A stretch of 64,000 nucleotides of DNA, from positions 1-64,000 of the forward strand of contig CALVUQ010000004.1 of assembly GCA_944363615.1 (NCBI GenBank). Reading direction: 5' to 3'. The notes under the pieces were generated by a model. It worked only from the letters and a program-made list of their open reading frames with translations, had not been told where the DNA came from and did no database searches. This document shows positions 8,778 to 64,000 of the stretch, one piece after another. This DNA is from an uncultured Clostridia bacterium (GTDB lineage Bacteria; Bacillota; Clostridia; Christensenellales; Pumilibacteraceae). Within the stretch, counting starts at the first letter, position 1. Each line of letters starts with the position of its first letter. The position numbers and the translations under genes are program-made.

Positions 8778-10739
8778 TTACGCTTTTTTTACGCCGTCGG
8801 GCTTAATGACGAATTTGATTTTGTCGCCGATGTTAAGCTTGGGAGTACCTGCAACGATACCGGTAAAGTAAGGCTGCATTCCTTCCACGCTTGCGTAAAC
8901 GATGGTATTGTCACCGAGAACGTCGGCATCTTCGACAACGCCGGAGATGACAAGCTTGGGATTGGCCTGAACAGCTTCTTTGCCCGTTTCCATGTTCTTG
9001 TAATCGACGATAACGTCATATTCGCCTTCGTCGAACTTGCCGTCGTCGTTGGGAAGAACGAGTTTGCTTTTACCGAAGGAAACGACAGCGTACTTGTTGA
9101 CGATGGTCTCGGGTTCGGCCTGAGGTGCGCCTTCTGCCGCGGGAGCGGGTTTAACTTTGGTGACGACTTCCTTAAGGGCAACCTTGGCAAGAGTCTTGTT
9201 GTCGGATACCGCACGGAAAGCGATGATCTTTTCGCCGGAATAAAGGTCGAACAGCATGATCTTTTCGGGGTTGACGTAGTAAGTAAGTTTCTCCCCGTTC
9301 TTGACTTCGGCGTCAAGCGGATGTTTTGCGACCATGAAGGTGCTTTTGCCTTTGACGGCGGAATAAACAGCGGTAAATCTCGGGAAAGGCTCGGTAAAAT
9401 CGGCGGTAGCCTTGACGACGGCGTCTGCGTCGGAAGTAGGCTCGGTAGTCAAAGCTTCGGGCGGAATACCCAGTTTGACTTTGCCGCCCACGGCGCCGGG
9501 AGCCGTAAGTTTTGCGGCAACGGTCTCAGGAAGCACGATTTTGGTATCGCCGAAGGAAACGACAAGCGTATTTCCCTCGCCCACGTTAAGATCGGCGTCC
9601 ATCATGTTGTAACGCGGTACGCCCATAATGGTAAGCTCCGTCTTATTGTCGAAGAAATGCAGGTGATGAGCGTCGATTGCGAGTTTGACATTTTCGCCGG
9701 CTTTAACGGAAGTACGTGCGTCGATACGCGCAACGGTATAATCCTCTTTGCCGTCGACTTCCATATAAAGGAAAGTCTCGTTACCCAGTTTTTCCATAAC
9801 GTCGACGTGCGCGTTGATTACGGTGTTGGGCGAAGAAGAAATGAAGATTTCCTCGTCATGGATATCTTCGGGACGGACGCCCAAAGTAATCTCCTGTCCG
9901 ATATATGCTTCGTCGATAAGGCGTTTTGCCTTTTCTTCGGGAATTTCGATCTTGTTGCTGCCGAAAGAGGCGTACATCTTACCCTTCTCGCGGGAAAGAA
10001 CAGCATGCTCGAAGAAGTTCATCTGCGGGGAGCCCAGGAAAGAAGCGACAAACTTGTTTTCGGGGCTGTCGTAAAGGAACTGAGGAGTATCTACCTGCTG
10101 CACGATACCGTCTTTCATGACGACGATACGGGTGCCCATTGTCATAGCCTCGGTCTGGTCGTGAGTGACGTATATAAAAGTGGTGGCAAGTTTGTGGTGA
10201 AGCTTGGTAATCTCGGTACGCATCTGTACGCGCAGTTTTGCGTCGAGGTTGGAAAGAGGCTCGTCGAGAAGGAAGACCTTAGGCTCACGCACGATTGCGC
10301 GTCCCAAAGCCACACGCTGACGCTGACCGCCGGAAAGCGCTTTAGGCTTACGCGAAAGCAAAGGCGTGATACCGAGGATGGCTGCCGCCTCCTTTACCCT
10401 GTCGTCGATTTCCTGAGAAGCCATTTTCCTCAGGCGCAGACCGAACGCCATGTTTTCGTAAACGGTCATGTGCGGATAAAGAGCGTAGTTCTGGAACACC
10501 ATTGCGATATCCCTGTCCTTGGGTTCTACGTCGTTGACGAGTTTGCCGTCGATGTAAAGCTCACCGGCGGAGATTTCCTCAAGACCCGCAATCATACGCA
10601 AAGTGGTAGATTTGCCGCAGCCCGACGGACCTACGAATACTATAAACTCTTTATCGTCAATCTCCAGGTTGAAGTCGCTTACTGCCTTAACGTTACCCGG
10701 ATAAATTTTGTAGACGTGCCTGAGCGATAAACTTGCCAT
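8778..10739 (-). CDS. Sugar ABC transporter ATPase (MsmK/UgpC type), extended C-terminus
   Basis: A 653-residue ATPase of the carbohydrate importer class that couples ATP hydrolysis to uptake through separate permeases. Walker A GPSGCGKST is at 37-45, the Q-loop at 83, the signature LSGGQ at 135-139, Walker B VFLLDE at 155-160 and the H-loop at 193. The usual regulatory OB/TOBE region follows from about 235. Normal members end near 370 residues; this one adds about 280. The extra part repeats the same module: SFGSNKIEIPE (258-268), SFGDTKIVLPE (395-405) and SFGKSKLVLPN (554-564), with an Ala/Pro/Glu linker near 531-545. No permease or binding protein is adjacent, so it may serve several importers, as MsmX does. 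AAGGAG precedes the ATG. Confidence 0.88.
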   Translation of the reverse strand: MASLSLRHVYKIYPGNVKAVSDFNLEIDDKEFIVFVGPSGCGKSTTLRMIAGLEEISAGELYIDGKLVNDVEPKDRDIAMVFQNYALYPHMTVYENMAFGLRLRKMASQEIDDRVKEAAAILGITPLLSRKPKALSGGQRQRVALGRAIVREPKVFLLDEPLSNLDAKLRVQMRTEITKLHHKLATTFIYVTHDQTEAMTMGTRIVVMKDGIVQQVDTPQFLYDSPENKFVASFLGSPQMNFFEHAVLSREKGKMYASFGSNKIEIPEEKAKRLIDEAYIGQEITLGVRPEDIHDEEIFISSSPNTVINAHVDVMEKLGNETFLYMEVDGKEDYTVARIDARTSVKAGENVKLAIDAHHLHFFDNKTELTIMGVPRYNMMDADLNVGEGNTLVVSFGDTKIVLPETVAAKLTAPGAVGGKVKLGIPPEALTTEPTSDADAVVKATADFTEPFPRFTAVYSAVKGKSTFMVAKHPLDAEVKNGEKLTYYVNPEKIMLFDLYSGEKIIAFRAVSDNKTLAKVALKEVVTKVKPAPAAEGAPQAEPETIVNKYAVVSFGKSKLVLPNDDGKFDEGEYDVIVDYKNMETGKEAVQANPKLVISGVVEDADVLGDNTIVYASVEGMQPYFTGIVAGTPKLNIGDKIKFVIKPDGVKKA

Positions 10740-10778
10740 AATCCTCTCCTTATTTATAATTGATTGATTACCGTTAAT

Positions 10779-10808
10779 ATTGTACTACATTCGGCGAATA
10801 AATATCAA
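10779..10808 (-). promoter_or_regulatory. Sigma-A promoter of the ABC ATPase gene
   Basis: TTGATA (10803-10808) and TACAAT (10779-10784) on the minus strand have an 18-bp spacer and lie 40 bp before the start codon. Confidence 0.65.
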
Positions 10809-11001
10809 TAACATTTTGCATAAAATTTAGAAGAAATAATATATGATTTGCACAATCGAAAGCGCGTATTCGCAAAGGCTTCACACGATTTACACAAAAC
10901 CGTCAAACAGTTTTTTTCCGGCGCCCCTGCGCTTGACTAAAGACCGCGCTTTGCCGTATAATATAAGCAGTAAAAGTAAAACGCTTTATCAAGGGGCAGA
11001 A

Positions 11002-12195
11002 ATGGACTTAAAGAAAATCAAAGAGTTGTCGAACAAGTATTACATGAACGTTTTCCATCGGCAGAACATATGTTTTGTCCGCGGAAACGGCAATAAACTT
11101 TACGACACGACGGGCAAAGAATACACCGATTTCGTTTCGGGCATCGGCGTAAACTGTTTAGGCTACAATAATCCCGACCTTACCAAAGCCATTTCGGATC
11201 AGGCCGCAAAGCTCATTCACTCCAGTAATCTTTATTATAACGAAGAACAGGCCGCGCTTTGCGAAAAACTGATTAAGGGTACGATTTTCACCAAAATGTT
11301 CCTTGCCAACAGCGGCGCCGAAGCCAACGAATGTGCGATAAAGCTGGTCAGGAAACACTATAACCTGCGCGGTCAGCACCGTCCCGTCATTATAACGGCG
11401 AACGGCTCCTTTCACGGGCGTACGCTTGCCACGCTTACCGCTACGGGCCAGGAAAGCCATTACAAGATTTACGAACCCTTGCCGTCGGGATTCAGACACG
11501 TCCCTTACGGCGATCTTAACGCCCTTAAAAACGCGCTTACCGACGACGTCGGGGCCATAATGCTGGAAGTCATTCAAAGCCGCAGCGCGATAAGACCCGC
11601 GGACTACGACTACCTTGTGGGGGCATATGCGCTTTGCCGCTCCAAAGACGCGCTGTTCATTCTGGACGAGATTCAGACGGGCATGGGCAGAACGGGAAAA
11701 ATGTTCGCGTTTGAGCATCACGGGCTTCAGCCCGATATCGTAACCGTCGCCAAAGGACTGGGCGGAGGTTTGCCCATTTCCGCAGTACTTGCGCGCGGTG
11801 ACGTGGCTAACGCGTTTGCGATTGGCGATCACGGCTCTACCCTTTCGGGCAACCAGCTTGCCTGTGCGGCCGCAAGCGTAGTCGTGGACAAGCTTAAAAA
11901 CGGACTGCTGGAGGAAATCGCGCAGAAAGGCGAATATTTTTCGGGAAAGCTGGCGTACTTCAACAAATACAAATTCGTCAGCGGCATTAAGGGTCTGGGG
12001 CTGCTGCAAAGCGTGGAGCTGGGAAGCGCGCTTAACGGCAACTACGTCGCGGCGCAACTGCTTAACGCGGGCGTACTTGTAAACTGCACCAAGCAAAACG
12101 TAATAAGATTGCTTCCGCCCTACACGATAGAAAAATCCGAAATCGACGAGTTCTGCGAAAAACTGGACGATATTTTCAGAAACACCAATCTTTAA
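11002..12195 (+). CDS. Class III aminotransferase, acetylornithine aminotransferase-like
   Basis: A 397-residue PLP enzyme closest in layout to ArgD, which moves an amino group between N-acetylornithine and 2-oxoglutarate. The PLP lysine is Lys251 (TVAKGLGGG), the PLP-nitrogen aspartate is in LDEIQTGMGRTG (about 222), and the phosphate-binding NSGAEANE is near 103-110. An odd point: the family motif QGEGG reads QSRSA (192-196), so the glutamate that gates the active-site arginine in this family is gone. The real substrate may therefore differ. AAGGGGC precedes the chosen ATG; the longer frame from 10843 has no site. No other arginine genes are nearby. Confidence 0.8.
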   Translation: MDLKKIKELSNKYYMNVFHRQNICFVRGNGNKLYDTTGKEYTDFVSGIGVNCLGYNNPDLTKAISDQAAKLIHSSNLYYNEEQAALCEKLIKGTIFTKMFLANSGAEANECAIKLVRKHYNLRGQHRPVIITANGSFHGRTLATLTATGQESHYKIYEPLPSGFRHVPYGDLNALKNALTDDVGAIMLEVIQSRSAIRPADYDYLVGAYALCRSKDALFILDEIQTGMGRTGKMFAFEHHGLQPDIVTVAKGLGGGLPISAVLARGDVANAFAIGDHGSTLSGNQLACAAASVVVDKLKNGLLEEIAQKGEYFSGKLAYFNKYKFVSGIKGLGLLQSVELGSALNGNYVAAQLLNAGVLVNCTKQNVIRLLPPYTIEKSEIDEFCEKLDDIFRNTNL

Positions 12196-19021: not shown

Positions 19022-19447
19022 TCAGACGCCTTTTTTCCTCAGAAGCGCCTCCGCCGCAAGGACGTAGCTGTCCGCGCCGAAGCCGCACACGGAACCCGCG
19101 CAAGCCGCCGCTATAACCGATTTGTGACGGTATTCCTCGCGCTTGTATATGTTGGACAAATGCACCTCCACAACGGGTGCGGAAATACATTTTATGGCGT
19201 CGTGTATGGCGTAAGAGTAATGCGTATAGGCGCCGGCGTTAAGCACTATTCCATCCGCGTCGGAGGAATGTATCTTGTCGATTATTCCGCCTTCGGAGTT
19301 GGACTGAAAGAACTCCAGCGTCGCCCTGTCCCCCACGTAAGATGCCAGTTTTTCGTTAATCCGCGCAAGCGTTTCGGTGCCGTAAACGTCGGGCTCGCGC
19401 ACGCCCAGCATGTTGAGATTGGGTCCGTTTATCACAAGAATTTTCAT
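19022..19447 (-). CDS. aroQ: 3-Dehydroquinate dehydratase, type II
   Basis: A 141-residue type II dehydroquinase that converts 3-dehydroquinate to 3-dehydroshikimate. The family start NGPNLNMLGVREPDVYG carries the catalytic Tyr and a loop Arg. HYSYAIHDAI, VEVHLSNIYKREEYR and HKS give the catalytic His and substrate-binding Arg. The ATG at 19447 has AAAGGAG seven bases upstream. An unrelated type I-like protein lies elsewhere in this window (55586-56374), so this is the likely biosynthetic enzyme. Confidence 0.94.
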   Translation of the reverse strand: MKILVINGPNLNMLGVREPDVYGTETLARINEKLASYVGDRATLEFFQSNSEGGIIDKIHSSDADGIVLNAGAYTHYSYAIHDAIKCISAPVVEVHLSNIYKREEYRHKSVIAAACAGSVCGFGADSYVLAAEALLRKKGV

Positions 19448-51337: not shown

Positions 51338-52369
51338 GTGTATTTCGACATTGCAAAAATAACCGATAAGGGCGGCAGACCGTTCAATCAGGACTACGCG
51401 GACTTCGCGACAGAGGACGGGTTTGCCTGCGTTGCCGTCGCCGACGGGCTGGGCGCATACGAAGGCAGCGAAATCGCGGGCGAAACCGCGGTGAAAAGCG
51501 TGCTGCGCGGATTTATCAAAGCGGTCAGAAAAGAGGAAGAAATATTTTCGGGCGCCATGATGAACAAATTGTTCAAGCACGCGCACAACGCCATTCATAA
51601 AAGGAAAAACGACTTTCCGGAAATGCGCAACGGCTGCACCACTCTTTCGGTGGCGATAACCGACGGAAAAAATCTTGTAGCCGCGCACGCAGGCGACACG
51701 CGCATCTATTATTTTAAGTCTGACGTGCTGGAATTTTATTCCAAAGACCATTCCCTGGCGCGGCTGGCGGCCGAACGCGGCGAAATAGAATACTCCGAAA
51801 TACGCACGCACAAGGACCAGAACAAACTGACGCGGGTATTGGGATCGGATTACTTTATTCAGCCGGACTTCAAAGTTTACCGTGAGTGCGGCGCGCAGGA
51901 TGCTTTAATCGTTTGTACAGACGGCTTCTGGGAATATGTTTACGAACGCGACATGGAAAAAGCTTTACACGAAACTTCGGATGCGCAAAGCGCGCTTAAA
52001 ATGTTTGAAGGCCTAATAGGCAGCCGTGCGCAAAAGGGCAACGACAATTTTTCGGCGATTGTATTGCGCTTTAGAAAAACCGAGCCCGAAAAGCAGTCAG
52101 CCCCTGCGCCCGACATTAATGCCGAAAACAGCTTAAATAAAGACGGCGAAGAAAGAAGTAATAAAACCGACGGAGAAAAAGAAGACGTCAGCGGCGATTT
52201 TTCAGGCGCGGAAGATAAGAACGAAAGCGGCGCGGACAGCGATTCGTCCGACGAAACCGCTTCCGACGAAACCGCTTCCGCCGCCATGTCGTCCCGCGAC
52301 TCTTCTTCCGACTCTTCCGTCGAAAACCATACCTATAGCGAAACGGGCGAAATCGACAAAAGCCTTTGA
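51338..52369 (+). CDS. PP2C-family Ser/Thr protein phosphatase with acidic tail
   Basis: A 343-residue protein. The metal-dependent phosphatase domain (about 1-245) shows NQDYADF, VADGLGAYEGSEIA (metal Asp36/Gly37), AAHAGDTRIYY, KDHSLA, CTDGFWEYV and the last metal motif GNDNFSAIVL. The remaining 95 residues are a low-complexity acidic and Ser-rich tail without hydrophobic segments, including a DETAS repeat. The start is GTG at 51338 after AGGGG. The kinase gene follows after 25 bp, so the two are a reversible phosphorylation pair, presumably in the cytosol. Confidence 0.92.
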   Translation: MYFDIAKITDKGGRPFNQDYADFATEDGFACVAVADGLGAYEGSEIAGETAVKSVLRGFIKAVRKEEEIFSGAMMNKLFKHAHNAIHKRKNDFPEMRNGCTTLSVAITDGKNLVAAHAGDTRIYYFKSDVLEFYSKDHSLARLAAERGEIEYSEIRTHKDQNKLTRVLGSDYFIQPDFKVYRECGAQDALIVCTDGFWEYVYERDMEKALHETSDAQSALKMFEGLIGSRAQKGNDNFSAIVLRFRKTEPEKQSAPAPDINAENSLNKDGEERSNKTDGEKEDVSGDFSGAEDKNESGADSDSSDETASDETASAAMSSRDSSSDSSVENHTYSETGEIDKSL

Positions 52370-52394
52370 AAAGACAAACTGAATCGGTGAAAAA

Positions 52395-54128
52395 ATGCCA
52401 AAAATAAGGAACAACAGGAATATTTGTCTTTACTGTTTCGGCGATCTTGACGAGCGCCGCGTTTGTCGCGCCTGCGGAAAAAAAGCTAATGACGAGCCCA
52501 ATCTTCCCCACCAGCTTGCCAAGCGGTCGATGCTTCAGAAGCGATATCTGATCGACAAAGCGATAGGCGAAGGCGGATTCGGGATAACCTATGCGGCGTG
52601 GGACGTGGTGCGCGGAATCAAAGTCGCGATTAAGGAGTATTATCCCAGCGGTTACGTATCGCGCGACCCCAGATCCAACCGTATAATAATAAACGCCAAA
52701 CAGAATTACGCCGCGTCCAACCGCGGGCTTAAACGCTTTATCGACGAGGCGAAAAACCTTACCTCCATCAATAATCTTGCGGGAATAGTAAGCGTGTACG
52801 ACTTTTTTTCCGCAAACAACACCGCCTACATCGTCATGGAATATCTGGACGGGATTTCGCTTAAAAAATACGTAAGAAGAAAAGGCAAACTGGACATCGA
52901 CGCCACTTTAGCCATTTTAAAGCCTGTGATTCTGTCTTTGGGAGAAGTGCACGCGACGGGGCTTATTCACCGCGACATATCCCCCGATAACATTCTTATA
53001 ACCAAAAACAACGAGGTAAAACTTATCGACTTCGGCGCGTCCAAAGCGGCCAATCCCGACGGGCAGTCCGTATCGATAGTGCTTAAACAGGGCTTTGCCC
53101 CCGAAGAGCAGTACCGCCTTCACGGCGAGCAGGGTCCGTGGACGGATATTTATGCGCTGGGCGTAACCATTTATTACTGTATAACTGGCCAGCTTCCGCC
53201 CGAGAGCATACAGAGAATGTACGACGACACGATAATACCGCCCTCTCAGCTTAACGTGAAAATTCAGCCTTTCCGCGAAAAAGCGCTTATGAAAGCCTTG
53301 GCGGTGTTTGCAAAGGACAGATATCAGAACATCAAGGATTTTGCCGCGGACCTGTACAAGGGCGACGACGACGGCGATTTTCCCGACCTTAAGACGGTTC
53401 TTAGCAAAAGTAGCTACGTCCGCCCATCCGAAAGAAAGACGGAAGCAGCTGCGGCGGACGAAAACGCAACGAAGGCGCGCGCTTACCGAACGAACGGCAG
53501 TCACATAAGCCGCGAAATCCGGGACTTTGACGAAGACGCCGTCACTGACGATACCGTCACCGATAATACCGTCACCAATAATACCGTCACCGACGATACC
53601 GTCACGGAATCCGATTTTTCCGAGTTCGCCTCAAAGGACGACGCAACTTTTGACAGTCACGTAAAAAGCGGAATAAATCCAAGCCGCGGTTCAACGGTCG
53701 ACAGGCAAAGCGACTCCTCTTCCCGCGAAACGCTGGAAGTGACCGCCGCCTTAACCGCGGACGAAACGGGCGCTTACAGCGGAAACGCAAAAACCGTAAA
53801 CGCGGACGACATCGTAAGTTTTTACAACGAAGAAAAGACAGTGCGCCCCACTACGGTATTTGCATTGCGCAACACTGCGGCTGCGCACAAAATAACTCCG
53901 GACAAGCTTAAAAAGAAGTTTCTGAAAGACATGGGCGGTGAGGAAAAAACAGAAGCCGCCGTACCGCCTGAAACGGAAGAAACCGCTTTGGGCAAAGAAC
54001 TTTTCGGACAATCCGACGATGTAAAAGCCGTAAAAGAACGCGAGTTTAATCCGCGTACGGTTATCACCGACAGAAAGCACAGGGACTCGGCGGCGCGCCT
54101 TAAAAAACTGTTTGAAAAAAACGCATGA
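52395..54128 (+). CDS. Ser/Thr protein kinase with N-terminal zinc ribbon
   Basis: A 577-residue cytosolic kinase. Cys11/Cys14 and Cys24/Cys27 form an N-terminal zinc ribbon. The kinase domain has GEGGFG (58-63), Lys80 (VAIKEYYP), HRDISPDN (catalytic Asp194, Asn199) and DFG (Asp212). Residues after about 340 are low-complexity with no PASTA, FHA or transmembrane part. Four perfect-frame copies of a five-residue unit ending TVT (DDTVT, DNTVT, NNTVT, DDTVT) look like possible phosphorylation targets. Kinases with this ribbon often pair with a PP2C and a vWA protein in TerY-P-like modules; here no vWA gene is adjacent. The ribosome site is weak, so coupling to the phosphatase is likely. Confidence 0.92.
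   Translation: MPKIRNNRNICLYCFGDLDERRVCRACGKKANDEPNLPHQLAKRSMLQKRYLIDKAIGEGGFGITYAAWDVVRGIKVAIKEYYPSGYVSRDPRSNRIIINAKQNYAASNRGLKRFIDEAKNLTSINNLAGIVSVYDFFSANNTAYIVMEYLDGISLKKYVRRKGKLDIDATLAILKPVILSLGEVHATGLIHRDISPDNILITKNNEVKLIDFGASKAANPDGQSVSIVLKQGFAPEEQYRLHGEQGPWTDIYALGVTIYYCITGQLPPESIQRMYDDTIIPPSQLNVKIQPFREKALMKALAVFAKDRYQNIKDFAADLYKGDDDGDFPDLKTVLSKSSYVRPSERKTEAAAADENATKARAYRTNGSHISREIRDFDEDAVTDDTVTDNTVTNNTVTDDTVTESDFSEFASKDDATFDSHVKSGINPSRGSTVDRQSDSSSRETLEVTAALTADETGAYSGNAKTVNADDIVSFYNEEKTVRPTTVFALRNTAAAHKITPDKLKKKFLKDMGGEEKTEAAVPPETEETALGKELFGQSDDVKAVKEREFNPRTVITDRKHRDSAARLKKLFEKNA
53547..53606 (+). repeat. Four tandem 15-bp units inside the kinase gene
   Basis: Units read GACGATACCGTCACC with one to three changes. 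They keep frame and encode xxTVT repeats in the disordered tail, so they can expand or contract without a frameshift. Confidence 0.85.
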
Positions 54129-54216: not shown

Positions 54217-54247
54217 CGGACGCAAAGAAACTTGCGTCCGTTTTTTT
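54217..54247. terminator. Bidirectional intrinsic terminator
   Basis: CGGACGCAA (54217-54225) pairs perfectly with TTGCGTCCG (54232-54240), with an A-tract before and seven T after. It serves the kinase gene and can serve the opposing oxidoreductase gene. Confidence 0.85.
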
Positions 54248-54373: not shown

Positions 54374-55333
54374 CTACAATTCAAGCAGAATTTTACCTAT
54401 GTTTTTATTTGCGCGCATTTGCGCATGGGCAGCGTTTGCGTCTTCAAACCCGAAGACGCCGTAAATCACCGGCTTTATTTTTCCGCTTTCCACAAGAGGG
54501 AACACGTCTTTCACAAGCCCTTTGATTATTCGGGCTTTTACTTGCGGAGAACGGCTTCTTAAAGTGCTGCCGATGATTTTTACGCCTTTTTTGTAAAGCT
54601 CCTTAAGGTTTACGACGGTATTGTCGCCGGCAAGCGTAGCAATCTGAATCCATCTGCCGCCGCGGTTTAAAAGCGCCATGCATCTGCCTGCATCCTCCCC
54701 GCCCACGCAGTCGATAACGAGATCCACTTTTTCATAAGCGAAAACCGAAGCCAAGTCCGTTGAAAGCGTATCCACGATAAGATCGGCGCCCAACCCCGAT
54801 ATCGCCGCTATTTTGCCTTGGCCGCGTAGCGTAACTATTACCCTTGCGCCGAAAGCCTTTGCAAGCTGCGTTACGGCAATGCCCACTCCGCTTGCGCCGG
54901 CGGTCACAAGTACGGTTTCGCCTTTTTTCATTTTTCCTTCCGCGAAAAGATTAAGCCAGGCAGTGGAATACACCTCAGGCAAACACGCCGCCTCCGCCAT
55001 GGTAATTCCATCAGGCACGGGCATAACGCTGCCTTCCTTGGCCGCCGCGTATTCGGCATATCCGCCGCCGGGCAAAAGCGCGCAGACTTTTTGTCCCACC
55101 CGCAATTTGTCCGAAACCTTTTTGCCCTTTGCTGCTATTATGCCCGAAACCTCCAGTCCCGGCCACGAGGGGGCACCCGGGGGCGGAGGATAGTCGCCGT
55201 CCGCCTGCATAACGTCCGCGCGGTTCAAAGCGGCGTACTGTACCTTTATCAGCACTTCGTCAGAAGCGGGTTCAGGATCGGGCACAATCGAAATTTTCAG
55301 TTTTTTGTCATCTGTTACGGTCAATGCTCTCAT
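54374..55333 (-). CDS. NAD(P)H quinone oxidoreductase, PIG3-type MDR
   Basis: A 319-residue medium-chain reductase without zinc ligands. The family start ALNRADVMQADGDYPPPPGAP and GLEVSGII are those of the TP53I3/QorA group. The NADPH fold has TAGASGVGIAVTQLAKAFGA and the late FGFEDANAAHAQM motif. Such enzymes reduce quinones or enones with NADPH. It is monocistronic; a GGAGA site precedes the ATG. The upstream 250-bp gap holds nothing I can name. Confidence 0.9.
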   Translation of the reverse strand: MRALTVTDDKKLKISIVPDPEPASDEVLIKVQYAALNRADVMQADGDYPPPPGAPSWPGLEVSGIIAAKGKKVSDKLRVGQKVCALLPGGGYAEYAAAKEGSVMPVPDGITMAEAACLPEVYSTAWLNLFAEGKMKKGETVLVTAGASGVGIAVTQLAKAFGARVIVTLRGQGKIAAISGLGADLIVDTLSTDLASVFAYEKVDLVIDCVGGEDAGRCMALLNRGGRWIQIATLAGDNTVVNLKELYKKGVKIIGSTLRSRSPQVKARIIKGLVKDVFPLVESGKIKPVIYGVFGFEDANAAHAQMRANKNIGKILLEL

Positions 55334-55585: not shown

Positions 55586-56374
55586 TTAAACCTTCGGCCT
55601 AATGTTGGGCTTAATATCGACGTTTGCCTCCACGGCGGCGACGGCGCGCAAAAGCGGCTGATCCACAGTGCAGAACTTGTCGTAACGCTGTACGCACAGC
55701 CACATGCACGAGCCGAAATAAGGGCCGAAGACGCGATGCGGTTTACAATAAGGCCCTACCGATAAAAACAGGAAAGGAATTGACAGTTTTTCCTTGAGGA
55801 CAAGCGTGGTTTCAAGGTTTTTCATAAGTTCAATTTCCGACTCGGAAGCGGTGACGATTTTAGCGACGTCCGCGCCGCGCTCCTGCATTTCAAGCGCCAT
55901 GGAAAGAACCTCGTCCGCGGGCAAAAACCTGTAAACGTGCGACGACATAAGCGCTTCCCCGCCTTGGGCGTGAATGTTTTTTATAAATTCCCGCTGGCGA
56001 TTGATTACGGACTTATCCGTACTTAATTCCCTGTCCGCGGGCGGGCCGAACATATCGCCCGTAACGTCCAGCAAGGTAGCGCCGCATTCCAGCGCAGTCA
56101 TAAGGCCACGGGCGCGCTCCTCCTCGCTTAATCCGCTGTTTTCGTGGATTCGGTAATTGGTAACGTAAACGGGTTTATCCTCCGCAAAAGAGAAAATCTG
56201 CTTGAGATTTTCCTCGGTAAAATACTCCTTTTTTATTCTGCAAAGCTGAATCCCGAAAGCATCCGCCCCATCGTAAATCGAATTGCGGATGTATTCAATG
56301 CAATCCTGCGGCGTCTGCACCTGAATCATACTTACTTTTAAAGGTTTTACCGCGCTTCTGAATGACGGTCTCAT
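55586..56374 (-). CDS. Type I 3-dehydroquinase-like protein
   Basis: A 262-residue TIM-barrel protein related to AroD. The Schiff-base lysine is Lys172 (ADVAKI) and the catalytic His is His146 (MSSHVYRF). The late loop PHRVFGPYFGSCM carries the substrate-binding Arg214 in the normal place. The early strand that should read EWRVDFF instead reads GIQLCRI, so the usual Glu and Arg contacts for the dehydroquinate carboxylate and hydroxyls look lost. It lies 185 bp after a dehydrogenase gene in an AraC-controlled unit, and the aromatic operon already has aroQ, so a catabolic or changed role is likely. GGAGG precedes the ATG. Confidence 0.78.
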   Translation of the reverse strand: MRPSFRSAVKPLKVSMIQVQTPQDCIEYIRNSIYDGADAFGIQLCRIKKEYFTEENLKQIFSFAEDKPVYVTNYRIHENSGLSEEERARGLMTALECGATLLDVTGDMFGPPADRELSTDKSVINRQREFIKNIHAQGGEALMSSHVYRFLPADEVLSMALEMQERGADVAKIVTASESEIELMKNLETTLVLKEKLSIPFLFLSVGPYCKPHRVFGPYFGSCMWLCVQRYDKFCTVDQPLLRAVAAVEANVDIKPNIRPKV

Positions 56375-56559
56375 GTCTTTTTTTGCCTCCGGATTTTACC
56401 GCGCTTATCGATTGCGCCGAATCTGAAAAATTTTTTACAGCCGGAATCCCGACTTGTTTTTATCTTTATATCCTTTTCGTGGATTTTGCCGTGCTTAACG
56501 CTTAACGGCTTATACCTAACCCACCAAAGTTTTATTCCGTTTATCCGTGCCGATCACAG

Positions 56560-57297
56560 TCAGCCGTTCATCATAAGATGTCTGCCGCCGTCCATTAATA
56601 CGGTTTCGCCCGTGATAAACCCGCCCTTATCCGAGCAAAGATACAGCACCATGTCGACGATTTCCATGGGGTCGGCCGCCCGTCCCAAAGCGGTTTTCAT
56701 GTTTGCCATCGCGGGTCTTGTAAGCACGGGGCCCGGGGCGACGCAGTTTACCCTTACGCCGTATTTTGCGCCCAGCATGGCAAGCGACTTGTTAAGCCCG
56801 TTCATTATCGCGCTTTTGGATATGGCGTAATCCATGCCGCAGATATCCCCTTCAATACCCGTAATGGAACCGAAATTGATGATTACGCCGCTTTTTTGAG
56901 CTTTCATCTGCCGCATTGCCTCATGGCAGAAGTAAACCGTACCCATAAGGTTGACATCGATACCCCAGCGTATCTGTTCAATGGGCAGATCACAAAATTC
57001 CGCATGTCGGTTGAAAATCCGACAGGAATTGCCGCCTGCACAGTTAATAAGAAAGTCAAGACTTCCGAAGGACTTAACGGCGAAGTTTACCGTGGAGGCG
57101 ACTTCCTCGAAATTTCTGACGTCGCAAGGTACCCCTACGGCTTTTTTGCCGATCTCGCGTTCAGCGCTTTTCAGCGCGTCTCGGTCAACGTCCGCCAGCA
57201 CCACGTTTGCGCCTTCCTGCGTAAAACGCAAAGCCGTAGCCTTTCCCATACCCGAAGCGCCTCCTGTAACAATCGCCGTTTTTCCTTCAAAAATCAT
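56560..57297 (-). CDS. Short-chain dehydrogenase/reductase
   Basis: A 245-residue classical SDR. The cofactor loop is TGGASGMGKA, with Asp in ADVDRD favouring NAD. The stabilising NCAGG is near 86-90. The catalytic set is Ser in FGSITG, Tyr and Lys in YAISKSA. The late APGPVLT and GETVLMDGG are typical. It acts on a hydroxyl or keto group of a small molecule. The ATG at 57297 has AAAGGAG eight bases upstream; a GTG 19 codons before it lacks a site. The gene faces an AraC regulator and is followed by the dehydroquinase-like gene. Confidence 0.9.
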   Translation of the reverse strand: MIFEGKTAIVTGGASGMGKATALRFTQEGANVVLADVDRDALKSAEREIGKKAVGVPCDVRNFEEVASTVNFAVKSFGSLDFLINCAGGNSCRIFNRHAEFCDLPIEQIRWGIDVNLMGTVYFCHEAMRQMKAQKSGVIINFGSITGIEGDICGMDYAISKSAIMNGLNKSLAMLGAKYGVRVNCVAPGPVLTRPAMANMKTALGRAADPMEIVDMVLYLCSDKGGFITGETVLMDGGRHLMMNG

Positions 57298-57327
57298 AGT
57301 ATATACTCCTTTCCCCGAGATAATTTC

Positions 57328-57356
57328 ATTATAAACGATTGACCTTAATCCCACAA
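57328..57356 (-). promoter_or_regulatory. Promoter of the SDR gene
   Basis: TTGTGG and TATAAT on the minus strand are 17 bp apart. The -35 box is weak, which suits activation by AraC, and the site overlaps the divergent AraC promoter. Confidence 0.5.
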
Positions 57357-57367
57357 TGATGTATACT
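57339..57367 (+). promoter_or_regulatory. Promoter of the second AraC gene
   Basis: TTGACC (57339-57344), 17 bp and TATACT (57362-57367). The coding start follows only eight bases after the -10 box, so the mRNA may be leaderless. Confidence 0.6.
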
Positions 57368-57374
57368 GTCGAAT

Positions 57375-58214
57375 ATGAAACCTATTCTCTCACATTCGGA
57401 CAACAAAAGCATGATTTCGGCACGCAAGGAAAGTTTTTTTACCGCTATAAGAGCGGCAAAATATACCTTTATGCACAGAGAATACAACGATTTTCTGCAC
57501 AGTCCGCGGCCCGTGCACAATCTGGCGGTATTAACAAAAGGCAGTTGCGAAATTACAGTAAACGATACTGTCATTGACTTTAATTGCGGGGACGTATTGT
57601 TCATCCCCAAAGGCACCGTATACGCATCGGAGTGGACGGGCAATCCGCAAATAAGTTTTACTTCCCTTCATTTCGATTTTACCGCCGCCGCGAATCCGTT
57701 TTTATCTTGCGTGCCGTCACTGCAGGTAATAAAAACCGACGAAGAACGTTTTGTAAAGGAAAAACTGAGTGAAATACCGGAATTACGCGAACGCGGCACA
57801 GACTGCGATTTCCAGGTAATTGCCGCGGCTTATTCTATATTTGCAATCGTTTTTCCCAAGCTTAAGACGTCCATGATTAAGCACGGTTACGGGCTGATAC
57901 AACCCGCGATAACGCTGATTGAAAACCGCTTCAGAGAGGATATTAAGATAAAACAGCTTGCAGACCTTTGCTGCATGAGCGAATCCCGCTTCTTTGCATG
58001 GTTCAAAAAACTGACGGGAACGACGCCCGTAGAGTACAAAAACCGAATCGCGATAGGATTTGCTAAAGCCGAACTTATTTCCGAGCCCCACAAAAGCGTG
58101 GAACGGGTTGCGGAAGAATGCGGATTCGATTCCGCGATATATTTCAGACGGGTTTTCAGAAAAATAACGGGAAAAACTCCTTCCGAATACAGGAAAAACG
58201 AATCCGTCTTATAA
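57375..58214 (+). CDS. AraC-family transcriptional regulator
   Basis: A 279-residue regulator. The N-terminal cupin-like part (about 25-130) has NLAVLTKGSCEITVND and GDVLFIPKGTVY. The C-terminal DNA-binding part (about 175-279) has IKQLADLCCMSESRFFAWFKKLTG and VAEECGFDSAIYFRRVF, ending TGKTPSEYRK. It is transcribed away from the SDR gene, with 77 bp between the starts and overlapping promoters, so it probably controls that unit. No ribosome site is seen before the ATG; the promoter position suggests a leaderless message. The ligand is likely a sugar or polyol-like compound, by analogy only. Confidence 0.92.
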   Translation: MKPILSHSDNKSMISARKESFFTAIRAAKYTFMHREYNDFLHSPRPVHNLAVLTKGSCEITVNDTVIDFNCGDVLFIPKGTVYASEWTGNPQISFTSLHFDFTAAANPFLSCVPSLQVIKTDEERFVKEKLSEIPELRERGTDCDFQVIAAAYSIFAIVFPKLKTSMIKHGYGLIQPAITLIENRFREDIKIKQLADLCCMSESRFFAWFKKLTGTTPVEYKNRIAIGFAKAELISEPHKSVERVAEECGFDSAIYFRRVFRKITGKTPSEYRKNESVL

Positions 58215-58481: not shown

Positions 58482-58985
58482 TTAATTGTCCGACGGCCCG
58501 TTTGCCGAAAAATTAACGGAAGAACCGGACTTTTCCTCCTGCGGGGCGGAATCCGTCGTTTCGGACCCGTCCGTGAGTGAGGAAGTTTCCTTTTCCTGTT
58601 TTTCGGGTACTGAAGCGGTCGAATTGTGCTTTGCGGCATAAGCTTCAAGCTGCTTTTTGACGCTTTCGTAAGTGGCTATCGCAAGCGCGCCGTAAAGGAC
58701 TGCGGACGTCGCCACCGCCGCGTAATCCACATTGAACACGTTGAACCGATTGAGAATCAATTCGGTAAACAGCTCAAGCACAAAGGCTACGGCGACGGGC
58801 AAAACGGTGATGTATTTTGTCACGATCGATTTGTCCAGCCCGCGGTCGGCAGCAAGACGCTCCGCCCTTTTGATAATAGGCTTTTTGATCAGATTGACGA
58901 TAATCACCGTTGCGATAACGATAGTCGCGGCCCTGAACCCGTAAGTACCGAACAGCTTACTGACCGAGTTTATGATACCTTCCAT
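58482..58985 (-). CDS. Small membrane protein, possibly holin-like
   Basis: A 167-residue protein with three predicted membrane helices (about 17-34, 58-78 and 85-104) and a hydrophilic Ser/Glu-rich C-terminal tail of about 55 residues. The plan of few helices plus a charged tail is that of phage holins, and its place as last gene after virion-like genes agrees. No endolysin gene is next to it. The ATG at 58985 follows GGGAGG; a longer frame from 59021 lacks a site. I do not recognise the family by sequence. Confidence 0.6.
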   Translation of the reverse strand: MEGIINSVSKLFGTYGFRAATIVIATVIIVNLIKKPIIKRAERLAADRGLDKSIVTKYITVLPVAVAFVLELFTELILNRFNVFNVDYAAVATSAVLYGALAIATYESVKKQLEAYAAKHNSTASVPEKQEKETSSLTDGSETTDSAPQEEKSGSSVNFSANGPSDN

Positions 58986-59039
58986 TCTATATCCTCCCGA
59001 TTGAAATTCCCGCCGTCCCACCCGTACGGAAAGAAAAGG

Positions 59040-59975
59040 TTATCTGGCGAACTCGTCGTACAGCTTATAGAAGTACGCGTCGGAAAGATAAGCGCGGTAA
59101 ATGCTGTTGTTTCTGACCTCGTTCTGCGCTTCCTGAGCGCTCATGGTAAGCAGTTTGTCCCTTAAAAGAGTATAGATCTGCTGATATCTTGAGTCCTGCT
59201 CCGCCACGCCGGGATTGTCGGTAAGGTCGCGCTCCGCCTTAGCCTGGGAAAGCGCTTCCGAATAGAGGTCGGATTCGGCTTTCTCGCGCTCGATACGTTC
59301 GTTTTCCTCTTTCTCGGCAAGCGTGTTGTTATACTTGATCGCCTCGTTTTTAAGCTCTTCGCGCTGCTCCTTAAGCTTGTTAATCTCCTCGGTCAGCTTT
59401 GCCGTATAGGAAATGTTGAATTCGTCCATAGCTTTTTGCCGCTCGACTTCCAATCCGTTTATTTTGCTTGTAAGGTCCGCGTCCTGGCGGTTGTACTCGG
59501 CGGCGGCAGCGGCGGCCTTGTCGGCTTTTTCGCTGTTAATCGCGGCCGTAGTGTTAAGCGCAATGGAAGAACGCGCAAGTCCGCGTTTAAGCGCGTCGTT
59601 GTTTGCCGCCTCTATCGCGCTTTGATAAGCGTCGTTAAGGCTTTTAAGCGTGCTTTCGTAAGCTGCGGTATTGACGTTTTTGTCCGAAGTGTATTTTTCA
59701 AGCAACGCCGCGATTTCGTTTTCTATGGACGAAACGCCTGCCTGCTCGTATTCCTTCAGAGAGTCCTGGGCGCGTTTTTCGATCTCCTCGTCGGAGGGGG
59801 CGTCGTATTCGATGCGGTCGTAAGTTATTCCGTCACCCAAATCGGGCTTTTCGGGAATCTGAGTCGTGGCGTTTATCTCGTTGATTTTATCGAGAATATC
59901 CGCGTAATCAGAGTTGTCATCCGCTTTCCCGCTTGCTTTTTGCACAAGACCGCGAATATATGTCGAAATGTTCAT
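59040..59975 (-). CDS. Coiled-coil protein, probable phage structural component
   Basis: A 311-residue protein that is almost entirely alpha-helical. Heptad-rich stretches cover about 65-240 (for example LTEEINKLKEQREELKNEAI), and there is an Ala-rich run near 150-160. No signal peptide or enzyme motif is visible. The length and helix content suit a scaffold, tail-needle or chaperone-like virion protein, but this is inference from its neighbours. AAGGAG lies seven bases before the ATG. Confidence 0.65.
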   Translation of the reverse strand: MNISTYIRGLVQKASGKADDNSDYADILDKINEINATTQIPEKPDLGDGITYDRIEYDAPSDEEIEKRAQDSLKEYEQAGVSSIENEIAALLEKYTSDKNVNTAAYESTLKSLNDAYQSAIEAANNDALKRGLARSSIALNTTAAINSEKADKAAAAAAEYNRQDADLTSKINGLEVERQKAMDEFNISYTAKLTEEINKLKEQREELKNEAIKYNNTLAEKEENERIEREKAESDLYSEALSQAKAERDLTDNPGVAEQDSRYQQIYTLLRDKLLTMSAQEAQNEVRNNSIYRAYLSDAYFYKLYDEFAR

Positions 59976-60058
59976 TGTCTTTATCTCCTTTTGAATTTTG
60001 TGAGTAATAATAGCACCTTCGTCTGTTTCGCGCCACCATGGCTTTAAGGCGCTTTAAT

Positions 60059-60304
60059 TCAATCGGGCACATAGGTAAAACCTCCTCTGCGTTCAAGCCT
60101 GCCTTGCGACAGTTTGAAGCAATCGTCGGCGTAGCTTATCGTCTGCGCGCCCGAAAAGAGCGGCTGACGGGAGCCTGCCGGGATTTTTTTGTACACAAGC
60201 GCGCCGCCCGTGTCGAGAATGAATCCCGTATCGCCGTTGTCCTCCCTTCTGGCGCTGCTGAGCCTGCCTTTACCCAGTATGACCGATGAAACCGAAAATC
60301 TCAT
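60059..60304 (-). CDS. Small conserved-looking protein of the phage-like cluster
   Basis: An 81-residue protein. It starts with GGAGGTG just upstream, and its ATG overlaps the previous stop codon as ATGA, so it is a real coupled gene. It is hydrophilic with several Gly and Arg residues (GFILDTGGALVYKK, LSQGRLERRGG). No domain is recognised. A joining or decoration role in a virion is possible. Confidence 0.6.
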   Translation of the reverse strand: MRFSVSSVILGKGRLSSARREDNGDTGFILDTGGALVYKKIPAGSRQPLFSGAQTISYADDCFKLSQGRLERRGGFTYVPD

Positions 60305-62163
60305 TGCTTTGCACCTCCGTAATCCAATGAAAACTCCGCGTCCACGGCAACGCCTCCCGCCATGGGGTCGTCCGCGACGACGGCTTCGTACGTTATCCCC
60401 GTATAGGGCTTTGAATACGGACAGAAAAGAACTTTACCGTATTCCACGGGATAAAAAGCCGTTACCGTGCCGTCCGCGTAAAGCAGCAAAATATAGTCGC
60501 CGAAAACGGTTTGCGACACGGGTCTGTCCGCCTGCCCGTCGAAAGGCAGCTCCCTGGCGACGCAAAGGCTTCCCGACCAGCCCGCTATCCTGCTTAGTTT
60601 GTCCCCTTTGTATATAATGGTATATTCACCGCAGAAACCGACCTCCTCCTCATTGTCGAGTTTGAATGTGGTGGAAGTTTCGCGTATGGCAAGCACGTGG
60701 GCATCGGTTAAGGCGTTTCTTAGCCTTATCCATCTTCCGCCTATTTCATAGACATGAAGGTGAGCGGTAGTCAGATAAAACTTAAGACGGTCTGCGTTGT
60801 TGGAATTGGTGCCGCTTACCCCGACGGACTTAAATAAGGCTTGGGATGCCGACCAATAGTCGATGAATTTGACGTCGTGCTTAATAAATCCGAAATCTTC
60901 GGGAAGCTGCAGAAGGGAGTCGACAACGGTGACTTCCCCCGCGGTATAATAGATAAGATAGAACGCGCCCGAGGAAATAAAAGCTATTTCGTAAGAGCCT
61001 GCTTCCTTTACGGCATAAACGCCTGTCACGTCCTTATAATCGGTAAATTCTTTTTTTACCGCTTCCTGTCCGTCCCAAAAGTAAGCCGTTAAAACTTCTC
61101 CGCCCGTGAACAGACTTCCGTCCGAACAGATATCCGACGCGGGGAAACTCCCCTTAACGGTGTAAAGAAATTCCGCACGGTTGTCTGAAAATTTGTAAAC
61201 GCTGATTTCCTTATCGTTTACGACCGCCGTAAACGCACCGGAAGGCTCGGTGATGAACCGCGAGTTTTTGGGCAGCTTAAAGGGAAACGGTTGCGGGCAG
61301 TCCTTTGTTACTCTGCTGACAAAAGGCAGGACGTAAACTTCCGCCACGGCCGTACCCTGATTTTTCACGTTGTAAATCTGCAGTATGTGACGATCGACAA
61401 TCTCTACGCTGGAATTATAGCGCAATGTGCCGGAAAGTGACTCGACATGCGCCGACAGGGAAAAGAATCCGCGAAGAACGGGCTTATCGTCCAGAATGAT
61501 AATAATTTCGTACGGAGAAGTCGTAAACCGCGCTTTCATTATAAGCTTATTATCTGAAGTGCTTGCGCCGGTATCGTATTTTTCCGTGAGTTCTGTGGCG
61601 GTACGCGGCATCACCGCGGTTTTGTGATAATTGGTCCCGTGCGCCATCTCGTACCTGTGGCCCGAAAAGGAGTTCATGCCCAGAAAGATTTCCGCCATCT
61701 TGTTTTTGCCGCTTACGAATCGAAGCTTGTCGGAAACAAGACTCAGTCTTACTTCCGCCCGAATGACTATATTTTCGCCTTTACGCTTCGTTACTCCTTC
61801 GAATGCGGCGTAGTTGACAAGCGGTTTTCCATTATCGAAAGGCGTTAAGCCCGCTTCCGACACAACCGTTCCTTCCGCGACGTCGTCGTCCGTAAGGATT
61901 ATCGAATATGCCGCAAACAACTCGCCTTGCGACGGATCGGAATTGTATTCGTCAAGCTGCGTTTCTTTACAAATCAAGAGATTACCCAGCCCGTTGTCGC
62001 TCAGCGCGTCGCCCGTGCCCGCGGCGATGTATTTTGCGTAATTGTTCCACGTATTAAGCGCCGCCGCAAGGTCCACGACCGTGTTGTGCGACACGCACGT
62101 TTTGCCCGAACCGGAAATCGTAAAAGAGTTGGTAAGCACTGCTTTTTGAATAAGTTCCTTCAT
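60301..62163 (-). CDS. Large beta-rich protein of the phage-like cluster
   Basis: A 620-residue protein without signal or membrane segment. The first 270 residues look like a lectin or jelly-roll unit (HNTVVDLAAALNTWNNYAKY, then FVSRVTKDC). The rest has repeated strand pairs such as SGAFTAVVNDKEISVYKF, GSLFTGGEVLTAYFW and SGAFYLIYYTAGEVTVV, in the manner of a propeller. It is probably a tail fibre, tail tube or receptor-binding component. AAGGAGG precedes the ATG, which overlaps the upstream stop by one base. Confidence 0.62.
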   Translation of the reverse strand: MKELIQKAVLTNSFTISGSGKTCVSHNTVVDLAAALNTWNNYAKYIAAGTGDALSDNGLGNLLICKETQLDEYNSDPSQGELFAAYSIILTDDDVAEGTVVSEAGLTPFDNGKPLVNYAAFEGVTKRKGENIVIRAEVRLSLVSDKLRFVSGKNKMAEIFLGMNSFSGHRYEMAHGTNYHKTAVMPRTATELTEKYDTGASTSDNKLIMKARFTTSPYEIIIILDDKPVLRGFFSLSAHVESLSGTLRYNSSVEIVDRHILQIYNVKNQGTAVAEVYVLPFVSRVTKDCPQPFPFKLPKNSRFITEPSGAFTAVVNDKEISVYKFSDNRAEFLYTVKGSFPASDICSDGSLFTGGEVLTAYFWDGQEAVKKEFTDYKDVTGVYAVKEAGSYEIAFISSGAFYLIYYTAGEVTVVDSLLQLPEDFGFIKHDVKFIDYWSASQALFKSVGVSGTNSNNADRLKFYLTTAHLHVYEIGGRWIRLRNALTDAHVLAIRETSTTFKLDNEEEVGFCGEYTIIYKGDKLSRIAGWSGSLCVARELPFDGQADRPVSQTVFGDYILLLYADGTVTAFYPVEYGKVLFCPYSKPYTGITYEAVVADDPMAGGVAVDAEFSLDYGGAKQ

Positions 62164-63146
62164 TAGGTACCTCCTTCTTCCGTCACCGGGGTGTAGCTTA
62201 TATCCGCATAGACGGTAATTCTGTCGCTGCCGCCGTATTCGGTTTCGCAGTTCTTCAGCAGATTGCGGTTAAGCGTGCTTATCGTCAAAACCGGAGGCAG
62301 CGCGTTTTTAACGAATCCCACGCCTTTAACTTCCTCCCCCACGTCCACCGCAAACGGCTGAGAGCAGCCGCCGTCGTAGACGTAACGGCAATACGCTTTG
62401 CCGGACAATAGCTCCGCCAGCGCGAAACCGTCGTTGTAACGGGTGATAGCCACCGCTTCCGCGCCGCTTCCCACGTACTGCTTGCTTTTTACAGTCATCG
62501 CGGTATCGGTAAAAGCGACGAAAGTGTTTCCGCAAACGTCGACGTAAGCCACCGCAAAACCGTCTTCCGTCGCGGTAACGTCGCAGCGGCTGCCCGTCCC
62601 GACGGTCACGGGAGAAGCGTCCGAAAAATCGGGTTCGGTAAAAGCGCAGGCGTAAACGTAATCGTCGCGCGAAAAGACAAGCGCCCACACGTTTCCGCAC
62701 TTGTCCGCCGAAGCGTCGCCGCCCGTGCGCGCTATGTCCGCGTCAGCGCCGCTTATCACTATCTGACAGGAAACCAACGTACAGTTAAGTTTATCTGCGC
62801 TTAAGGAAACGACGGCGGTTCCGTCGATCGATGCGGCGCATATTATGAAGCAGTCGCGCGTTTCGCCCTGAGCGGCGGAAAAAGCCGTATAGCCGGCTTT
62901 AAGGCCGTTGATCTTCACGCTTAATTCCGCGTCGGTAACGGATTCGTCCGCGCGGACGAAGGCGCGAAGAAAAATCGTCACGCCCCCGCCGGCACGAACG
63001 TCGGATATAAAACAGTCGCCTCTTCTAAAATCGAACATGGGGTTAACCGTAAAACTTCCGCACAATACGCGCTTTGAATCCGTCGACACGGCAAGTCTGT
63101 TTTCCAGCTCATCCACTTTGAGATATGCAATTTTGCCGTAATCCAT
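62163..63146 (-). CDS. Beta-rich protein of the phage-like cluster
   Basis: A 327-residue protein with many short strands and several Cys residues. Regularly spaced segments (KCGNVWALVFSRDDYVYACAF, EDGFAVAYVDVCGNTFVAF, YNDGFALAELLSGKAYCRYVY) suggest a propeller or sheet-rich fold. Its N-terminus (KIAYLKVDELENRLAVST) looks like a small attachment region. It has GGAGG before the ATG and sits between two other virion-like genes. No specific family is recognised. Confidence 0.6.
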   Translation of the reverse strand: MDYGKIAYLKVDELENRLAVSTDSKRVLCGSFTVNPMFDFRRGDCFISDVRAGGGVTIFLRAFVRADESVTDAELSVKINGLKAGYTAFSAAQGETRDCFIICAASIDGTAVVSLSADKLNCTLVSCQIVISGADADIARTGGDASADKCGNVWALVFSRDDYVYACAFTEPDFSDASPVTVGTGSRCDVTATEDGFAVAYVDVCGNTFVAFTDTAMTVKSKQYVGSGAEAVAITRYNDGFALAELLSGKAYCRYVYDGGCSQPFAVDVGEEVKGVGFVKNALPPVLTISTLNRNLLKNCETEYGGSDRITVYADISYTPVTEEGGT

Positions 63147-63161
63147 TTATAAATCCTCCCG

Positions 63162-64000
63162 TCAGTCGCCGCTTTTCGTGATTATGAGCGAAGGGCGCGA
63201 CACGCAGGCGGAAGCCTCCTCGGAAATTATGTCGAACCCTATACGCCTTCCCGGAAAAGCCACGCGTTTTTTCTGCACTTCCGCACCTCCTCCGAACTCA
63301 ACGGATTTTTCGCGCGTGTCGGAGCGCAGGACGATTCTGACGTCGCCTTCGCTGGCAAGGCAGATTTCACGCACGAACTTTTTCCTGACGTCGCCCAGAT
63401 CGGTTTTCGGGACGCGCCATTTTTTCAAAAGCGGAACGCCGAACAGCGCGCCGCACTTTTCCACTCTTCCCGCTTTTCCGTCGCCCGTAACGGCAATCGT
63501 CCTGCCTGAGTCGGGACGGCAGAAACAGGCGATGTCCACGCCTCGCGACAGCGAATAGTCGCCGCCGTTAAGGTCAAGGACAAGCAAAGCGTTGTTAACG
63601 TATTCGCCCGCCTCACATCCCACCGTGTCGGCGTCGGTAACGCGCCTGAAGGCAAGATAGTATTTCCCGTCGGCGTAAAACGCGCAGGAGTTTTCGCCGC
63701 TTTCGATAATTGCGTCCAGGCCTTTAAGCATTTTTTTCGTGGAAACGCCGTCAAACATGTAAAGGCCGTCGTCGGCAAGAAAGACCACCGCGTCGCCGCA
63801 TAAGGCAACCGAACCGGGAAAAATTCTGCCGCTGGAAACGAAAAGATTGCTTACCGAAAAATCCGTCTGAGCGCCGTAAGCCGTAATACGCGAAATTCCG
63901 TAATCGCGGAACACGTAAACGTAGTTAAGGTAGCTTATAACCTTGTTAAGCGCACCGCGCTCGTCCACCATCTGAATGAAGCCGCCGCCCGCAAGCGACG
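63162..64000 (-). CDS. Propeller-like virion protein, 5' end outside the window
   Basis: The frame is open to the window edge: residues LAGGGFIQ precede the first internal Met with no stop, and that Met has no ribosome site, so the gene starts beyond 64000. The visible 278 residues have strand repeats (NYVYVFRDYGISRITAYG, DAVVFLADDGLYMFDG, GKYYLAFRRV). They resemble packaged-DNA stabilisation or tail-accessory propeller proteins of tailed phages. That resemblance is from memory of the pattern and is not proven. The stop is followed 15 bases later by the next gene. Confidence 0.6.
   Translation of the reverse strand, partial: SLAGGGFIQMVDERGALNKVISYLNYVYVFRDYGISRITAYGAQTDFSVSNLFVSSGRIFPGSVALCGDAVVFLADDGLYMFDGVSTKKMLKGLDAIIESGENSCAFYADGKYYLAFRRVTDADTVGCEAGEYVNNALLVLDLNGGDYSLSRGVDIACFCRPDSGRTIAVTGDGKAGRVEKCGALFGVPLLKKWRVPKTDLGDVRKKFVREICLASEGDVRIVLRSDTREKSVEFGGGAEVQKKRVAFPGRRIGFDIISEEASACVSRPSLIITKSGD

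Follow-up and report, generated by a model that had tools for sequence, protein, structure and literature searches.

In the window, by which we mean the whole 64,000-nucleotide stretch of DNA analysed here, from a 1.8 Mb source genome that is 95% complete, a gene for a dehydroquinase-like (DHQL) protein lies between those of a classical SDR and a PIG3-family oxidoreductase, with an AraC-family regulator divergent from the three enzymes (Table 1). Judged by its sequence and predicted structure, DHQL is a type I dehydroquinase by fold and core chemistry, but not by substrate site. We tentatively propose, with a confidence that falls a little short of even, that it belongs to an undescribed family of the dehydroquinase superfamily which would use a lysine imine for a beta-elimination on some plant metabolite outside the shikimate pathway, as part of an oxidise-eliminate-reduce cassette widespread in gut Clostridia (SDR, DHQL and PIG3, commonly joined by MocA, MDR, extended SDR and a lactonase-like protein). 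An earlier reading of the same DNA from its sequence only had described the AraC, SDR and DHQL genes at 55586-58214, all of which are present, and the third enzyme, PIG3, lies outside that interval and was absent from it.

Table 1. Features of the DHQL locus and other parts of the window mentioned in the text.
Feature	Position	Strand	Remarks
DHQL gene	55586..56374	-	262 aa; type I dehydroquinase fold; relative to E. coli AroD, K172/H146 kept, E46->Q43, R48->C45, E86->N79
Classical SDR gene	56560..57297	-	245 aa; NAD-type (D36); Ser/Tyr catalytic residues; PF13561, 163 bits
PIG3-family NAD(P)H quinone/enone oxidoreductase gene	54374..55333	-	319 aa; TIGR02824, 348.1 bits (cut-off 296.8)
AraC-family regulator gene	57375..58214	+	cupin-like N-terminus; PF12833, 74 bits; divergent from enzymes
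Promoter-like site before araC	57339..57367	+	TTGACC-17-TATACT; consensus match only; such sites occur at chance-level number in the region
Possible promoter of the enzyme unit	57328..57356	-	TTGTGG-17-TATAAT; read by eye; TTGTGG hexamer under the promoter scanner's threshold; overlaps araC promoter
Terminator-like hairpin 3' of the PIG3 gene	54217..54240	-	consensus match only
aroQ	19043..19444	-
PP2C-type phosphatase and Ser/Thr kinase gene pair	51338..54128		by eye; adjoins the enzyme unit, facing it
Phage-like gene run	58482..64000	-	starts right past the AraC gene; continues to contig end (69727)

Co-transcription of the SDR, DHQL and PIG3 genes in the window is plausible, since a hairpin follows PIG3 and the consensus scan listed none on the minus strand inside the unit, but no more than plausible given intergenic gaps of 185 bp (SDR/DHQL) and 252 bp (DHQL/PIG3). 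On the far side of the regulator, the phage-like run gave weak holin and virion-structural matches, and portal- and capsid-like proteins were recognised by eye; it is probably a prophage.

The profile search placed DHQL within PF01487 (59.5 bits, for a gathering cut-off of 22.2) and far under the cut-off of the aroD equivalog TIGR01093 (34.7 vs 139.3 bits needed). The sequence-only reading had looked to structure prediction, and the AlphaFold2 model (pLDDT 96) has the (beta/alpha)8 fold of the dehydroquinase type: every one of the top solved structures that match it is a type I dehydroquinase (Z up to 27.1; rmsd 2.4 A across 236 residues), and another fold class comes in at Z 18. Identity to the bacterial type I dehydroquinase structures is 15-18%, and in a tree that includes two AroD rows only and has long branches, DHQL is separated from AroD by a long branch with full support.

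In type I dehydroquinase, R213 and Q236 grip the carboxylate of the substrate, whereas E46, R48, R82 and D114, the last via water, contact its C4/C5 hydroxyls (PMC9902378). We located the equivalent DHQL residues by MAFFT and hhalign rather than by residue-level superposition; the hhalign alignment spans residues 61-251, the equivalence of E46 and R48 was taken from MAFFT and the predicted end of strand 39-43, and that of E86 with N79 is an ungapped register counted from R75 (R82 in E. coli). Across 76 DHQL homologues, the Schiff-base lysine K172 (E. coli K170), the catalytic histidine H146 (H143), R214 (R213) and D103 (D114) are each invariant, and R75 and Q239 (Q236) are kept in 73/76 and 70/76, respectively. 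The GIQLCRI segment of DHQL aligns with LEWRVD of AroD, which puts Q43 at the E46 position (Gln in 66/76) and C45 at the R48 position, where homologues have Glu (32/76) or Cys (30/76; 62/76 together). The position of E86, which is near the catalytic histidine in AroD, is occupied by N79 (Asn in 59/76), and the family has further conserved features of its own in G106-D107 (73/76) and Q127 (76/76). The sequence-only reading was thus right about the lysine and histidine, while its claim that the early Glu/Arg contacts are lost holds for E46 and R48, and also for E86, but not for the equivalents of R82, R213, D114 and Q236. With R214 and Q239 kept and E46, R48 and E86 replaced, the carboxylate end of the site appears kept and the diol end refitted, and the kept clamp suggests a hydroxylated acid as substrate. 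The losses of R48 and E86 could weaken rather than redirect catalysis. That DHQL is a decayed AroD was considered and rejected, given that the invariance of the core residues argues against decay.

Shikimate synthesis does not appear to be the job of DHQL, as its score is far under the aroD cut-off and aroQ lies elsewhere in the window, just as the sequence-only reading had noted. A back-up shikimate enzyme was likewise rejected because aroQ is present. The source genome has no type I dehydroquinase besides DHQL, and in six further DHQL genomes the type I matches are DHQL proteins only; five of these six carry aroQ, the sixth genome being 72% complete. The altered substrate site and a catabolic rather than biosynthetic role, both put forward in the sequence-only reading, are supported.

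The family is patchily distributed. Counting the window's own genome each time, DHQL was found in 4/74 genomes of the taxonomic family, 9/396 of the order and 3/398 of the phylum; the single further genome of the genus that was examined does not have it, and some genomes have two or three paralogues. A profile scan of species genomes gave 112 relatives, the best 80 of which are from Clostridia, according to the records mostly from animal guts, among them those of deer, goats, sheep, yak and buffalo. Single-sequence scans of genome contigs and viral contigs returned no DHQL relatives, which the family-profile scan did find, and no DHQL matches were found in phages.

Since the loci were gathered by a search with DHQL alone, their neighbouring genes were not selected for. 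They are mostly metagenome-assembled, although L096 is from the cultured relative Neglectibacter timonensis; their ORFs were called by a simple script backed by homology, and some loci end at contig ends. Within 6 kb of DHQL, an SDR was found in 83, PIG3 in 61 and AraC in 70 of the 92 loci, and the SDR is on the same strand at 150 bp or less from DHQL in 75 of them. When the loci were grouped at 80% identity into 68 clusters, the corresponding numbers were 61 for SDR, 46 for PIG3, 44 for SDR and PIG3 together and 51 for AraC; the SDR pairing described in the sequence-only reading recurs widely, and its divergent AraC control is supported as well. PIG3 and DHQL share a strand in 57/57 cases, PIG3 most often being the immediate downstream gene, and no PIG3 occurs beyond 6 kb from DHQL in 262 kb of flank. 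The SDR is the immediate upstream neighbour in 65 loci, and the commonest arrangement has AraC divergent at step -2 (35 loci). Of eight further loci taken from whole genomes within the order (L127-L134), five have PIG3 in the cluster (L127-L131), and SDRs and a quinone oxidoreductase are found in a Mesorhizobium DHQL cluster too. PIG3 is not nearby in 22/68 clusters, in some of them because the contig ends, and there are loci in which DHQL lacks an SDR.

GFO/IDH/MocA oxidoreductases (24/92), MDR dehydrogenases or metallo-beta-lactamase-fold (lactonase-like) proteins are additional members in about a quarter of the loci, and extended SDRs in about a tenth. A larger cluster, of the form AraC | MocA - MDR - extended SDR - DHQL - PIG3 - lactonase-like, recurs in L058, L060, L066, L116, L130 and others, and its MDR seems by eye to be without the usual zinc-ligand motif. 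Glycyl radical enzymes of the dehydratase/lyase class, some with activases, occur near DHQL clusters in L132, L046, L057, L060, L069 and L089; in L132 the gene (9383-11542) immediately precedes SDR-DHQL, in the same orientation. In L020 and L021, a second and more divergent DHQL subfamily sits, by eye, beside an enolase-superfamily dehydratase and a DgoK-like kinase, neighbours that hint at sugar acids; L020 also has a class II aldolase-like gene close by.

As regards the partner enzymes, the SDR shows the classical GxxxGxG motif, NAD-type Asp and Ser/Tyr, and among DHQL-adjacent SDRs S144 and Y157 are present in 82/82 and D36 in 78/82, which fits a putative oxidising role. It is one of nine matches to PF13561 in the source genome and scores under every NCBIfam cut-off among the matches listed. 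The PIG3 protein is the only one over the TIGR02824 cut-off in that genome; its relatives include enone and enoyl reductases, and the substrate range of PIG3 proteins also covers quinones and other compounds.

From these findings, we consider the chances about equal that the locus is, or is not, an inducible catabolic cassette for oxidation, elimination and reduction, in what we infer to be that order. The substrate would be a hydroxylated ring or chain, probably with a carboxylate, and the SDR would oxidise one of its secondary alcohols to a ketone, with which K172 of DHQL, by the residues kept, would form an imine. With H146 as acid/base, whatever is bound beta to that ketone, a hydroxyl or perhaps an ether or ester oxygen, would then be eliminated to leave an enone, whose C=C would be reduced by the PIG3-type oxidoreductase. 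The diol side of the substrate would be read by Q43, C/E45, N79 and G106-D107, unlike the dehydroquinase set, and the AraC protein may sense the substrate or an intermediate and turn on the divergent unit. Together, the three enzymes would probably act on an acid of plant origin, ring-like or sugar-like, and take off a hydroxyl or another leaving group.

Four other explanations were weighed. DHQL might be a true dehydroquinate dehydratase in quinate/shikimate breakdown, the SDR producing 3-dehydroquinate, DHQL 3-dehydroshikimate and PIG3 reducing the enone, so that quinate serves as an electron sink. Quinate esters are common in herbivore guts, where most of the known hosts live, the carboxylate clamp, R75 and D103 are kept, and the product would be an enone that suits PIG3. 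We nevertheless regard this as unlikely, given the family-wide replacement of E46, R48 and E86, the score far under the aroD cut-off, and loci without a YdiB/AroE-type gene: a partial YdiB query (217 aa) had no phmmer match to a quinate/shikimate dehydrogenase of that type in all ORFs of 94 loci. The MocA, MDR, extended-SDR and lactonase-like genes of many loci would also be superfluous to such a route. DHQL might instead be a lyase that acts on 3-keto-glycosides through a lysine imine: once a dehydrogenase had oxidised the sugar at C3, DHQL would eliminate the aglycone, and further oxidoreductases would finish the sugar. The GFO/IDH/MocA genes and the common metallo-lactonase-like ones speak for it, and a Gfo oxidoreductase works in the known elimination route. 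However, the known eliminases are Mn-dependent barrels (PMC10628242), whereas the best fold matches of DHQL are dehydroquinases. The carboxylate clamp and the enone reductase would be left unexplained as well, and we find this explanation quite improbable.

A class I aldolase, for which the SDR would supply a keto acid and the lysine imine would promote breakage of a C-C bond in it, is similarly doubtful. Lysine-imine barrel chemistry serves aldolases and dehydratases alike, and the loss of E86 could favour an altered reaction, but the catalytic histidine and dehydroquinase layout are kept, and the presence of an enone reductase in locus after locus speaks for an alkene as intermediate. With PIG3 in the unit, the sequence-only proposal of a new aldolase/dehydratase reaction is best narrowed to elimination followed by enone reduction, with the aldolase disfavoured. 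Lastly, it is very improbable that DHQL is catalytically dead, or a binding or regulatory protein, even with three altered active-site positions and a precedent in the inactive type I domain of C. albicans Aro1, since in that case the histidine (and in some species the lysine) is lost (PMC9074039), whereas both are invariant in 76/76 divergent DHQL sequences.

The type I 3-dehydroquinate dehydratase label that DHQL proteins carry in the public records NZ_CP083953.1, NZ_CP031313.1 and NZ_CP100446.1 is probably, or even very probably, a mis-annotation; more distant members annotated in this way are found in Mesorhizobium and haloarchaea. A full-text search of open-licence papers found no description of the dehydroquinase-like family, of gut-bacterial quinate routes or of the PIG3 pairing. 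The three-enzyme set, with its own regulator, offers a direct handle on a catabolic reaction common in herbivore-gut Clostridia, and DHQL a handle on how a textbook active site is refitted for another substrate.

In regards to known systems, DHQL shares with type I AroD (PF01487/TIGR01093) the fold, the Schiff-base lysine, the catalytic histidine and the equivalents of Arg213, Gln236, Arg82 and Asp114, but differs in the E46 to Q, R48 to Cys/Glu and E86 to Asn replacements, the extra GD motif and Q127, and it forms a separate clade with a catabolic-type gene neighbourhood in a host that has aroQ. The window PIG3 passes the cut-off of the PIG3-family quinone oxidoreductases (TIGR02824, MDR superfamily) and is unlike other members in being a fixed neighbour of a dehydroquinase-like gene. 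Quinate/shikimate catabolic operons likewise combine a dehydrogenase with a dehydroquinase-type enzyme, although here the SDR is not of the YdiB/AroE type, PIG3 and other oxidoreductases are added and the dehydroquinase site is altered. The CGE/OGE glycoside routes (PMC10628242) follow the same logic as that proposed here, in which the substrate is oxidised, a group beta to the ketone is eliminated and further redox steps ensue, but their eliminases are Mn-dependent, whereas in the DHQL cassette one would expect a lysine imine together with an enone reductase.
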